Assembly: GCA_913052475.1 (NCBI GenBank)
Contig: CAJXEJ010000011.1
Span: 1-52,669 of the forward strand
Reading direction: 5' to 3'
DNA: 52,669 bases
Source of the DNA: an uncultured Dehalococcoidia bacterium
Lineage (GTDB): Bacteria > Chloroflexota > Dehalococcoidia > Lucifugimonadales > Lucifugimonadaceae
In this document: in pieces, positions 18,836-28,463 of the stretch
Numbering within the stretch: position 1 is the first letter of the stretch
Layout: each line of letters starts with the position of its first letter
The notes under the pieces: generated by a model
What the model saw: only the letters and a program-made list of their open reading frames with translations
The model's database searches: none
What the model was told of the DNA's origin: nothing
Program-made: the position numbers and the translations under genes

Positions 18836-20656
18836 ATGAGTGGTGTGCTTGAAGGCAAAGTAGCAATCGTCACGGGAGCAGGTCGGGGAATCGGTCGTGG
18901 TATAGCGGAGGAGCTAGCGGCAAATGGTGCGAAAGTCGTAGTCAACGACGCTGGCGTATCACTTACCGGTGAATCCGAGGGGTTGAGTCCCGCCGACGAG
19001 GTTGTTGCCGGAATCAAAACCGCCGGCGGCGAGGCTGTGGCGATCGCAGAATCGGTTTCTACGTTCGATGGCGGTGGAAGAATTGTTCAGGCTGCGCTCG
19101 ACACGTTTGGACAGCTAGATATCGTCGCAACGGCAGCTGGAATTCTTCGGGACCGCATGATCTACAACATGACTGAAGAAGAGTGGGATGCGGTCTACGA
19201 TGTTCATCTTAAGGGCACGTTCAACATCGTTCGACACGCGGCTCCGCTGTTCCGGCAGCAGCGAGGGGGACGAGTAATCACGTTCACCTCGGAGTCGGGT
19301 CTTGTTGGATTCCCCGGCCAGGCGAACTACGGTGCTGCGAAATCGGGAATTCATGGCTTCACGAAAGTCGTAGCTAAAGACCTTGGCAAATATGGCGTCA
19401 CGGCGAACTCGATTGCACCTCGGGCAGAGACTCGCATGGTGGAATCGATACCCGAGGCAACACGTGAAAAGCTTGCAGCAAACGGGCTATTCCCCGGTAA
19501 AAACGAGGCTTCGTGGGAGCCGGAAGATGTTGCGCCGTTCGTTGCGTTCCTAGCTTCAGACTATTCGGCACCAGTAAACGGTCAAACGTTCCTCGTTTAT
19601 GGAGGAAACGTTGTTCATATGACGTTGCCTCGTCGGGTGAAGACGATCTACAACTCCGCACCGTCTGCGACATGGGAGCCAGATCAATTGGATGCGCAGG
19701 TGGGACCGAATCTCCTTGGGCATCCAGCGGTTGTAGGATCGAAATCAGGCAAACGACTCGAAGGCAAGGTTGCTGTTGTAACCGGAGCGGGGCGAGGGAT
19801 TGGTCGCGGAGTAGCGAAGCTCTTAGCGGCACACGGTGCATCGGTTGTTGTTGCCGACATTGGAGTTGCTCTGGACGGTGATGGTGAGGACACCACGCCT
19901 GCTGCGCAGGTTGTTGAGGAGATATCTGAGCTTGGTGGTAACGCCGTTGCTTCGTATCACTCGGTCGCCACGATGGAGGGCGGCGAAAACATCGTGAAGA
20001 CAGCGATGGAAGAGTTCGGTCGACTCGATATTGTCGTTACCGCAGCCGGGATTTTGCGGGATCGAATGCTGTTTAACATGACCGAGCAGGAATGGGATGA
20101 TGTGATGGCAGTGCACCTGAAGGGCACGTTCTCGGTCGTTCAACCCGCATCGCAAATTTTCAAAGAACAGGGCAGTGGACGGATCGTCACGTTTAGCTCG
20201 GTGTCAGGGCTGTACGGCTACGGAGGTCAGTCGAACTACGGTGCGGCTAAAGACGCTATTGCTGGATTTACACGAGTGGTGGCGAAAGATCTGGCGAGGC
20301 ACGGTGTGACGGCAAACGCAATTTCTCCGGGTGCACAGACTCGAATGACCGATTCGATTCCCGATTCGACGAGGAATATGCGCAAAGGTGAGTTCCTGCC
20401 TCCACCGGAAGGCACGCTTACAAACGAGCCGGAGCAGGTAGCGCCGATGATTGCGTGGTTGGCTTCGGATCAGGCTTCTGACGTGACAGGCCGGATTTTC
20501 CACACTGTCGGTAATCGAGTGAGCTTGATGAATTCACCCGAGCAGGGACGATCGATCCACAAAACAGGTCGCTGGACCGTTGAGGAACTGGCGGGCGTGT
20601 TCCCTGAGACGATCGGCATGGATCTAGTGAACCCGGCTCCACCGCAGGAGGGCTAG
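18836..20656 (+). CDS. Tandem double-SDR dehydrogenase (MFE-2/Fox2-like)
   Basis: A 606-residue protein made of two complete short-chain dehydrogenase domains, roughly residues 5-270 and 305-575. Each has the cofactor turn VTGAGRGIGRG, an AAGILRDRM block as in peroxisomal multifunctional enzyme type 2, and a Tyr-x3-Lys site (NYGAAKSG and NYGAAKDA). Family knowledge points to NAD-dependent oxidation of (R)-3-hydroxyacyl-CoA. Fungal Fox2 has exactly two such domains fused to a hydratase 2; here the hydratase is encoded by the two preceding genes. The two domains differ throughout, so the duplication is not recent. Confidence 0.92.
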   Translation: MSGVLEGKVAIVTGAGRGIGRGIAEELAANGAKVVVNDAGVSLTGESEGLSPADEVVAGIKTAGGEAVAIAESVSTFDGGGRIVQAALDTFGQLDIVATAAGILRDRMIYNMTEEEWDAVYDVHLKGTFNIVRHAAPLFRQQRGGRVITFTSESGLVGFPGQANYGAAKSGIHGFTKVVAKDLGKYGVTANSIAPRAETRMVESIPEATREKLAANGLFPGKNEASWEPEDVAPFVAFLASDYSAPVNGQTFLVYGGNVVHMTLPRRVKTIYNSAPSATWEPDQLDAQVGPNLLGHPAVVGSKSGKRLEGKVAVVTGAGRGIGRGVAKLLAAHGASVVVADIGVALDGDGEDTTPAAQVVEEISELGGNAVASYHSVATMEGGENIVKTAMEEFGRLDIVVTAAGILRDRMLFNMTEQEWDDVMAVHLKGTFSVVQPASQIFKEQGSGRIVTFSSVSGLYGYGGQSNYGAAKDAIAGFTRVVAKDLARHGVTANAISPGAQTRMTDSIPDSTRNMRKGEFLPPPEGTLTNEPEQVAPMIAWLASDQASDVTGRIFHTVGNRVSLMNSPEQGRSIHKTGRWTVEELAGVFPETIGMDLVNPAPPQEG

Positions 20657-23887: not shown

Positions 23888-24517
23888 CTATGAAGATGTT
23901 GAAGCTTCCACCGATTTAGCAGCAACAAGTTCGGGATAGAGTGCTTCCCACTCTTTCCGCCAGATTTCCATGAGCACGAACTCGTAGCCATCGCGTTTTA
24001 CTTCCCTTAGAGGAGTAAAACCGGCCTTCCTAAACGAGTTTTGCGCACGATGGTTGGTAGTGAGCGTGTGCAGATAGACCCGCTCGAGTCTCGTTTCCGT
24101 GAATATATGTGCAAGCGTGGATTTGACGACGTCAGTGCCATAACCCTTGCTCCAGTAGTCGCGGTCTCCGATCATGATGCCCAGTTCGCACTGCGATTTG
24201 TCGGTATTGATGTCGTAGTACATGCAATTGCCTATGTGGTGACCGTCGAGGGTGTCGATTGCCATGCGGACTGACCAAGGCGACGGGTAGTTGACATCGT
24301 CGCGATGATAGCGGATGTACTCGCCATACGTGAGGGTTGCCGGGCGGGTTGCGTCGAGTCTCGCCAATTCAGGATCGATACGCCATGAATAGTCGGCTTC
24401 GGCATCGTCCATCGATTTATTGCGAAGCACGGTGAGTTCACCGACGAGCCTTAACTCAGTCGTTTCCTGTTCTGCCTTCATAAAAGGCCACAACTTTTTC
24501 CAGGACTCGCGCTTCAT
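23888..24517 (-). CDS. GNAT-family N-acetyltransferase
   Basis: A 209-residue acetyltransferase. The acetyl-CoA loop is in ELGIMIGDRDYWSKGYGTDV, followed by HTLTTNHRAQNSFRKAGF, typical of RimJ/RimL-like GNATs that acetylate protein N-termini or small amines. It overlaps the NUDIX gene; if the internal ATG at 24481 is used the overlap falls from 62 to 26 bp. Substrate unknown. Confidence 0.85.
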   Translation of the reverse strand: MKRESWKKLWPFMKAEQETTELRLVGELTVLRNKSMDDAEADYSWRIDPELARLDATRPATLTYGEYIRYHRDDVNYPSPWSVRMAIDTLDGHHIGNCMYYDINTDKSQCELGIMIGDRDYWSKGYGTDVVKSTLAHIFTETRLERVYLHTLTTNHRAQNSFRKAGFTPLREVKRDGYEFVLMEIWRKEWEALYPELVAAKSVEASTSS

Positions 24518-24962
24518 TCCGATGGGTCAGCCTCTTTGATGCTTCTTTGATGTCGATCCATTCAACATCATCGTACTCATGATCGTGATTTGATGTGTCG
24601 CCACCGATGTATTTCATCAGGTACCAGTGAACCGTTTTATCGATTCGAACGGTGCTGTCGTCAGCAAATGGCAGTTCGCCGAAGATTTCTCCGGCAGTGC
24701 GGTAGAACGAGTAATAGGTATCGACGATTGCTGGGCCGGTTTCAACCCGCAACCCGGTCTCTTCGGCGACTTCACGCGCTGCTGTTTCTGCTACCGATTC
24801 GCCCTGCTCAGGCGTTCCTTTGGGTAGCGCCCAGAGTGACTCAGCGCGGCGATGGCAGAGGACAACAGTTAATTTCCCGCCGTTGTCGGGGTTCGGGCGA
24901 AGCACAACGCCGCCTGCTGACCAACGGTCGATTGAGTGATCTGTTGTGCGCTGGTTGGTCAT
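24456..24962 (-). CDS. NUDIX hydrolase
   Basis: A 168-residue NUDIX enzyme that cleaves nucleoside-diphosphate-linked compounds with Mg. The NUDIX box is intact: GTPEQGESVAETAAREVAEE ending in TGL. WSAGGVVLRP at the start and WYLMKYIGG later are usual strands of the fold. It is transcribed away from korA and followed by an overlapping GNAT gene. Diadenosine polyphosphate hydrolase or house-cleaning roles are possible. Confidence 0.9.
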   Translation of the reverse strand: MTNQRTTDHSIDRWSAGGVVLRPNPDNGGKLTVVLCHRRAESLWALPKGTPEQGESVAETAAREVAEETGLRVETGPAIVDTYYSFYRTAGEIFGELPFADDSTVRIDKTVHWYLMKYIGGDTSNHDHEYDDVEWIDIKEASKRLTHRNEARVLEKVVAFYEGRTGND

Positions 24963-25123
24963 GGTCCAAAACCGGGTACGGATCTGAAAAAGTCAGAAAT
25001 CCAATTGAGCGAATCGGTGAATGTGTGAGCGGATTCTAAGTTTGGTGGTGCCAATGGTCAAACGCCAGCCGGTCATGTTTCATTTGACTCTGGTTTCGAT
25101 TCGAAATTCATCACGAAAATAAA

Positions 25124-25152
25124 TTGACACTGAACTGATCGAATTCGATAAT
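25124..25152 (+). promoter_or_regulatory. Near-consensus sigma-70-type promoter
   Basis: A perfect -35 TTGACA (25124-25129), a 17-bp spacer, and -10 GATAAT (25147-25152), one base from consensus. The predicted start of transcription is about 25157-25160. It is the strongest promoter seen in the window and points at a structured stretch with no protein-coding gene, ending in a terminator. Confidence 0.75.
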
Positions 25153-25157
25153 TGTTA

Positions 25158-25337
25158 GTTGGGTAAACGCAATAAAATGCCACTTTGTAGCACACGCTCA
25201 CATCAAGAAGATGAAAATCGCAGTCGCCCGACTGGAACGACTGCATCGGAAGTGCTATCACATTTTTTAATGGGCATGCAGGAAATAACAGATAAACAGT
25301 AGCCGCATGAATCTCGATTGATGGATGCGGTTTTTTT
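25158..25337 (+). ncRNA. Candidate structured RNA: small RNA or attenuator leader of korAB
   Basis: About 180 nt lie between a near-consensus promoter and an intrinsic terminator. Nested complementarity is visible: ATGCC 25177-25181 with GGCAT 25273-25277, TAGCAC 25188-25193 with GTGCTA 25252-25257, and GCAGTCG 25220-25226 with CGACTGC 25238-25244. That gives one long rod with internal bubbles and an apical hairpin. CATGC 25275-25279 can instead pair with GCATG 25305-25309 inside the terminator stem, so two exclusive folds are possible. korA starts 77 nt downstream. Size and rod shape also recall 6S RNA. No known family was recognised. A 19-codon ORF at 25211 lacks ribosome-site spacing. Confidence 0.55.
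25303..25337 (+). terminator. Intrinsic terminator upstream of korA
   Basis: CCGCAT (25303-25308) pairs with ATGCGG (25325-25330), followed directly by seven T (25331-25337). No protein gene on the plus strand precedes it, so it must end the RNA starting near 25158 or attenuate korAB. Confidence 0.75.
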
Positions 25338-25413
25338 GCGCCTGAATCAATATCGTCGGGCGTGGGAATAGAAGAGCTTGTGGAACAGCAACTCCATAAA
25401 AAGGTAGTCTCAA

Positions 25414-28154: not shown

Positions 28155-28463
28155 CTACGGTGAGTCACGTCGGGCGATACGGCTGCGGTGCAGACGAGCT
28201 TTCAGTGCCGAGACTGATACGTCGAGTGTGTCTGCGGCTTCCTGATTCGAAAGGCCCTGCACGTCACGAAGAATCACGGCTACTCGAAGGTCTTCTGGCA
28301 GATCGTTGATTGCGGCGTCGATACGGTTGCCAAGCTCGCTATTCATCGTCGCAGCGACCGGTGACTCGGAGTAGCTGCTCAAAGGGACATCCATCCGTTG
28401 AGCAACGTTGTACACGAATCCCGAGTGCTTCTCGGCTGTCTTCGTGAATTCCTGTGCGTTCAA
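28155..28463 (-). pseudogene. ECF sigma factor remnant with region 2 core deleted
   Basis: A 102-codon frame. Its first ~24 residues (AQEFTKTAEKHSGFVYNVAQRM) look like the start of sigma region 2. It then jumps to a linker (SESPVAATMNSELGNRI) and a good region 4 (LPEDLRVAVILRDVQGLSNQ, then VSALKARLHRSR). About 70 residues that bind the -10 element and core polymerase are absent. ECF factors are normally about 170-200 residues. The only start is TTG at 28463 without a ribosome site. I read this as an in-frame deletion derivative, probably non-functional. A region-4-only DNA-binding protein is a less likely alternative. Confidence 0.65.

Follow-up and report, generated by a model that had tools for sequence, protein, structure and literature searches.

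A leader open reading frame that ends at a conserved intrinsic terminator suggests translation-coupled attenuation of korAB in Candidatus Lucifugimonas

Why would a transcript that begins at a near-consensus promoter meet an intrinsic terminator before it reaches korA, in the operon for a 2-oxoacid oxidoreductase? The question is raised by the window, the whole stretch of 52,669 nucleotides analyzed here, which comes from an uncultured member of the SAR202 Chloroflexota, a group described in passages of PMC10444878 as widespread marine bacteria that have only recently been cultured. The initial annotation had read the interval in front of korA as structured RNA, either a regulated leader of korAB or a free RNA of 6S-like size and shape. 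We compared it across 19 genomes, the window's own and 18 others, of the Candidatus Lucifugimonas genus, to which the named Candidatus Lucifugimonas marina JH1073 belongs. In the alignment of korA upstream regions, the order promoter, leader, terminator and korA is identical in all 19 genomes. Of the two readings, the regulated korAB leader with a terminator finds support, and the riboswitch and the 6S-like free RNA do not. The regulated leader is supported by the presence of the promoter and terminator in 19/19 genomes, by the lack of a recognizable second sigma-70-like promoter and by hairpins that are kept beyond the terminator. The earlier reading also overlooked a 41-codon leader ORF, which fills 25177-25302 and around which the arguments below are built (Table 1).

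Table 1. Features of the korAB leader region and operon, in window coordinates
Feature	Start	End	Strand	Basis
Sigma-70-type promoter, TTGACA (25124-25129), spacer 17, GATAAT (25147-25152)	25124	25152	+	11/12 consensus letters
Leader ORF, ATG to TAG (TAG 25300-25302), 41 codons	25177	25302	+	frame open in 15/19 species
Hairpin H1 inside leader ORF, consensus 10 pairs, 5-nt loop	25220	25244	+	mean z -2.08, 19 species; 14 with z < -1
Intrinsic terminator H2, stem 25301-25308/25325-25332, loop 16, seven T 25331-25337	25301	25337	+	mean z -3.66; 19/19 with z < -1
Hairpin H3 directly after T run	25335	25366	+	mean z -2.05; 13/19 with z < -1
Hairpin H4 just upstream of korA ribosome-binding site	25374	25394	+	mean z -1.84; 17/19 with z < -1
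Probable korA ribosome-binding site AAAGGT	25400	25405	+	read from sequence; aligned GAGAAGGT-like block kept in genus
korA, 2-oxoacid:acceptor oxidoreductase subunit alpha (POR domain fused to POR_N), TTG start	25414	27129	+	TIGR03710 549.6 bits vs cut-off 482.75; Pfam POR, POR_N, PFOR_II
korB, 2-oxoacid:acceptor oxidoreductase subunit beta	27126	27995	+	Pfam TPP_enzyme_C, PFO_beta_C

The promoter is present as first described and is kept throughout the genus: TTGACAC-N16-GATAATT is found upstream of korA in 19/19 genomes, with one additional match elsewhere in 5 of them. Its score is 11/12 in every one of the 19 species, compared with a shuffle-level best internal candidate; between the leader promoter and korA, no second sigma-70-like promoter scored above letter shuffles in any of these species. 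From the position of the -10 box we infer that transcription starts at about 25158, about 6 nt past it. The -10 box is overlapped by a palindrome, ATCGAATTCGAT, at 25138-25149, which is seen in the window and in 6 of 18 relatives and is a possible operator. On the minus strand, a divergent promoter, TTGACC-17-TAGAAT (25033-25061), faces a NUDIX gene at 24456-24962. It lies in a block that is well conserved across the genus alignment, so the NUDIX gene and the korA side share a short two-way promoter region.

Downstream, korA begins 77 nt past the T run on the same strand, as had been noted. In the 17 genomes measured, 107-122 nt separate the terminator stem from the start of korA; the contigs of L013 and L017 stop just past this start, as is visible in the alignment. 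The NCBIfam 2-oxoacid oxidoreductase beta models score korB under their cut-offs. The enzyme is given here as a 2-oxoacid:acceptor oxidoreductase; the name in the initial annotation was 2-oxoacid:ferredoxin oxidoreductase. Right behind korB, a 102-aa ORF on the minus strand (28155-28463) has its hits chiefly among models of sigma-70 region 4 and of ECF sigma factors and may be a truncated sigma factor. Elsewhere in the window, a 606-aa ORF on the plus strand (18836-20656) consists, judged by eye from its translation, of two successive short-chain dehydrogenase-like copies, apparently a tandem fusion.

The terminator was also correctly recognized at the outset, with arms CCGCAT (25303-25308) and ATGCGG (25325-25330) followed by seven T, and it is kept in 19/19 genus genomes. 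In the alignment, 97.4% of the H2 cells are paired and the CCGC/GCGG core is invariant in all 19 rows. A typed terminator pattern gave no match in 100 shuffles of the window. In the genus it is found once per genome in 16/19, the other three carrying C for T before the stem, and it was found in 0/57 other family genomes.

Does the RNA in front of this terminator fold into the rod that the initial annotation described? As a whole, the leader folds no better than shuffled sequence (MFE z = -1.29; 19/200 shuffles fold equally well or better), and its 5' and middle parts show no folding excess, with mean z values of +0.38 and +0.17 over the 19 species. The nested stems of the proposed rod fare unevenly. 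The outer stems, 25177-25181/25273-25277 and 25187-25193/25252-25258, exist in the window sequence and are not conserved: over the 19 species, 48.5% of their cells are paired, compared with 47.6% in shuffles (177/500 at least as high) and 29-43% when the arms are slid. The apical stem, 25220-25229/25235-25244, is real and conserved. This stem, H1, has two-sided changes at 7 of its 10 pairs and 80.5% of cells paired, although the count of two-sided changes is by itself unremarkable (113/500 shuffles). Taken with the terminator hairpin, it reaches 88.0% of cells paired, compared with 83.2% in shuffles (0/500) and 37-51% when slid. The conservation check that had been proposed, on the korA upstream regions of relatives, keeps H1 and the terminator and loses the outer rod stems. 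Many rows also carry a U-rich stretch after H1. Beyond the T run lie H3, whose pairs were left uncounted on the alignment because its arms shift register, and H4, which is weak in the window copy (z -0.71). By their position, these two hairpins would exist only on RNA that passes the terminator or that comes from an unseen promoter very close upstream.

Most of the RNA between the promoter and the terminator is taken up by the leader ORF, whose ATG lies 24 nt past the -10 hexamer. Its frame contains 6 internal stops over the alignment, compared with 40.9±11.6 in 2000 runs in which alignment columns were permuted within conservation classes (0/2000 as low), and 15 of 19 rows are open, compared with a shuffle mean of 2.2; the stop counts of frames 1 and 2 are like the null. 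Where leader codons differ, the amino acids they encode are more similar than expected (0.047 vs a null of -0.405±0.186; 0/300 shuffles), a test made on 11/19 rows with L010, L012, L013 and L015-L019 left out. Neutral simulation on the leader tree from an open root gave on average 5.0 open rows and never more than 12 over 150 runs, compared with the real 15, although the one simulated set that was checked is less diverged than the real alignment (62% vs 52% identity). The synonymous excess alone is weak (P = 0.06), as are an earlier synonymous count on 10/19 rows and position-specific rates alone, and the case for coding rests on stop avoidance together with the geometry described below. These comparisons indicate that the leader region is under coding constraint and support the view that the ORF is translated by ribosomes. 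Within the genus no clear Shine-Dalgarno sequence precedes it, only a mostly conserved GGGT.

The peptide itself changes fast. Among the 12 of 19 rows from which the leader-peptide profile A3 was built, identity to the window copy is 24-46%, and the peptides have in common only a loose C-terminal pattern. The one copy tested has no Pfam or NCBIfam match. At E<=1e-5 the profile finds one match, at the leader, in 14/19 genus genomes (12 of these 14 built the profile) and none in 57 other family genomes, the best outside match having an E value of 9.4e-4 and an internal stop; at E<=1 it gives scattered chance-level matches, with some match in 56/76 genomes. In L016 and L018, both of which still have the promoter and terminator, the ORF stops prematurely, after 19 and 5 codons respectively. 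In L004, L010 and L013 the frame is shifted by single-base indels, which may be genuine or may be assembly errors. In L004 the leader starts at a TTG or at an in-frame ATG 12 nt upstream.

In most species the leader stop codon lies at or close to the terminator. In the window, the TAG occupies the three bases before CCGCAT, and the stop abuts the CCGCAT stem in 11/19 species. It precedes the stem by 3 nt in L007 and by 10 nt in L013, falls inside the hairpin in L004, L010 and L015, and in L017 is reached 8 nt beyond the T run, the frame reading through the hairpin and the run itself. In all, 17/19 species have the stop no more than 10 nt from the stem, within the hairpin or, in one case, just beyond it. 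The distance from ATG to stem is also confined, at 121-134 nt in 19/19; in the window, measured from the first base of the ATG, it is 126 nt to the stem and 160 nt to the end of the T run.

How unusual this geometry is was gauged by a terminator scan of 452,669 bases, comprising 400 kb of JH1073 and the window, which found 39 terminators. Sixteen lie behind an ORF of at least 100 aa, with stems 10-83 nt past the stop (at least 22 nt in 15/16) and loops of 3-7 nt in 15/16. The leader terminator, in contrast, has a loop of 16 nt and a stem that begins 2 nt inside its own stop codon. Among the 23 terminators without a long ORF before them, a set that contains the leader's own, 11 have a short ORF (8-70 codons) whose end is near the stem. 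For 3 of those 11, not counting the korA leader, a long ORF also follows within 300 nt, and their promoter scores are 7-8/12. A short ORF near a terminator is thus common by chance in a single genome, and the case for the korAB leader rests on its conservation across species. In JH1073, terminators at L121 position 2869 and L133 position 8809, both on the plus strand, have a short ORF that ends at the stem or close to it, with a long ORF beginning 10 or 67 nt later; their promoter matches are weaker than that of the korA leader, and they are possible further leader attenuators.

We propose that the korAB leader is a translation-coupled transcription attenuator of the pyrBI type, a reading that the comparative evidence makes probable. 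The first ~145 nt of the transcript, mostly the leader ORF, would be translated by ribosomes, and a ribosome with the leader stop codon in its A site would cover about 10 nt downstream, that is, the whole 5' arm CCGCAT. With a ribosome close behind RNA polymerase, formation of the terminator hairpin would be blocked and korAB would be transcribed. If the leader were translated late or not at all, or if RNA polymerase outran the ribosome, the hairpin would form and transcription would stop at the T run. Because the stem lies so near the start codon, coupling would have to be fast or RNA polymerase would have to pause; H1 and the U-rich stretch may, speculatively, tune the relative speeds of the two machines. 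By analogy with pyrBI, the quantity sensed would most likely be translation-transcription coupling itself.

The pyrL leader ORF has 44 codons, and the U-rich stretch before the pyrBI terminator has a role in attenuation. The korAB leader resembles it in having an ORF of similar length, an intrinsic terminator and a U-rich stretch before the terminator. It differs from it in operon, phylum and peptide, in an ORF that in most cases runs up to the first base of the stem and in a 10-bp hairpin within that ORF, and pausing or a nucleotide signal of the pyrBI kind would carry over only by analogy. For E. coli pyrBI, passages of PMC5021804 describe suppression of the intrinsic terminator by the ribosome advancing on the PyrL leader. 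The effect of stop codon position on a terminator is documented in passages of PMC4824070, again for E. coli: moving the stop codon from 28 to 5 bp before the terminator lowered efficiency from ~90% to <10%, and uncoupled translation abolished this proximity effect. Counting against the proposal, ribosomes barely repressed a terminator placed 30 bp into an ORF. The korAB geometry, with a stop a few nucleotides before the stem, is of the terminator-suppressing kind in those tR2 reporters, which, unlike the natural leader, are artificial constructs with a full-length gene (PMC4824070, same passages). There the first ribosome is also described as reaching RNA polymerase within ~100-200 nt, and terminators located less than 100 bp into an ORF as still functional; the leader's distances to stem and T-run end fall where coupling is just being set up. 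A short translated uORF governs termination before the main gene in two further systems, described in PMC7815308 (mdtU-mdtJI) and PMC12218461 (the Sinorhizobium DUF1127 leader). The former differs from the korAB leader in using Rho and spermidine, and in the latter translation is needed for attenuation, the opposite direction.

Other readings of the same unit have to be weighed. Closest in form is a variant in which the leader peptide is a ligand-sensing arrest peptide: a stall at or near the stop, brought about by a ligand such as a compound that the 2-oxoacid oxidoreductase uses or makes, would hold the 5' arm of the terminator open and turn korAB on, and no antiterminator hairpin would be needed. 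Since the peptides share only their loose C-terminal pattern, we do not favor this reading and regard it as unlikely. Alternatively, the unit could be a stand-alone gene for a 41-aa small protein with its own promoter and terminator, with korAB transcribed from an unrecognized promoter or by passive leakage. The coding constraint on the frame fits such a gene, as does the way in which the strong promoter and conserved terminator frame the ORF exactly. Against it stand the fast-changing peptide, cut early in 2/19 species and frame-shifted in 3 more, the lack of a Pfam or NCBIfam match for the copy tested, the failure to recognize a second korAB promoter, and a spacing of stop and terminator that differs from what the 16 terminators after long ORFs show, and we consider a small-protein gene rather improbable.

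The readings that place function in the RNA fare worse. A free-standing small RNA with a regulatory function, ~175 nt long and with its 3' end at the terminator, be it 6S-like or acting in trans, would accord with the discrete promoter and terminator in 19/19 and with the two-sided changes in H1, and in size and as a discrete promoter-terminator unit the leader does resemble 6S RNA (RF00013). Unlike 6S RNA, it has no conserved closing stem and matches the model at E<=0.001 in 0/19 genus genomes, in a search that put only 4/14 control genomes over the cut-off. The Rfam comparison that had been suggested gave no match at gathering score in the region, for riboswitch, T-box or any other known family, and below that score two chance-level matches, both on the minus strand. 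With the outer stems not conserved, the 5' and middle parts folding at shuffle level and the leader under coding constraint, such an RNA appears highly improbable. A classical amino-acid attenuator or a riboswitch with a competing antiterminator would likewise explain a leader ORF followed by a terminator. The two-state arrangement first proposed around CATGC does not survive the comparison, as the letters at 25275-25279 are present in only 1/19 rows. No upstream segment pairs 6/6 with the 5' arm CCGCAT in any of the 19 rows, the best column for 5/6 pairing reaches 7/19, and 6/6 pairing to the 3' arm is seen in at most 2/19 at any column. The first six letters of A1 do pair 5/6 with the 3' arm in 15/19 rows, largely through G-U pairs, and give a weak hint of an RNA switch. 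In the L016-L018 clade, the 5' end of the transcript pairs at least 7/8 with the 5' arm of the terminator, and 2 of these 3 genomes have a prematurely ended leader ORF; the complementarity could be an RNA-only substitute. As an antiterminator it was set aside, a rough estimate giving about one such match per leader by chance. The peptides, inspected by eye in the 19 rows, share no run of one amino acid, which speaks against regulatory codons of the trp/his type. An amino-acid attenuator or riboswitch of this kind is, in our judgment, very unlikely.

To what extent does the translation-coupled leader reach beyond the genus? A unit of this kind extending to other genera was rejected, as both the terminator pattern and, at E<=1e-5, the peptide profile are without a match in the 57 other family genomes searched. 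Among 36 korA upstream regions outside the genus, taken from 35/42 family genomes with a korA match at E<=1e-100, a promoter scoring 11/12 was found in 7, at 197-326 nt upstream, and a terminator-like site in 1, 306 nt from korA. Near-consensus promoters so far upstream of korA in other genera suggest that a long leader before korA may predate the terminator. In L081, the sole g2 genome, the promoter is followed by AGGAGAGACCT-ATG, a clear Shine-Dalgarno sequence with its start codon, and by a frame of ~85 codons that overlaps the korA start; this leader has no terminator.

Among the papers that searches of an open-access library listed, none has a title or displayed abstract on leader-peptide attenuation in SAR202 or for this enzyme. 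If the proposed attenuator is correct, translation-transcription coupling controls a central 2-oxoacid oxidoreductase operon in the Chloroflexota, and the rule followed by the korAB leader would be a simple signature with which to find such switches in genomes for which no expression data exist. Were the arrest-peptide variant true instead, the leader would encode a new metabolite-sensing leader peptide, in the SAR202 clade.
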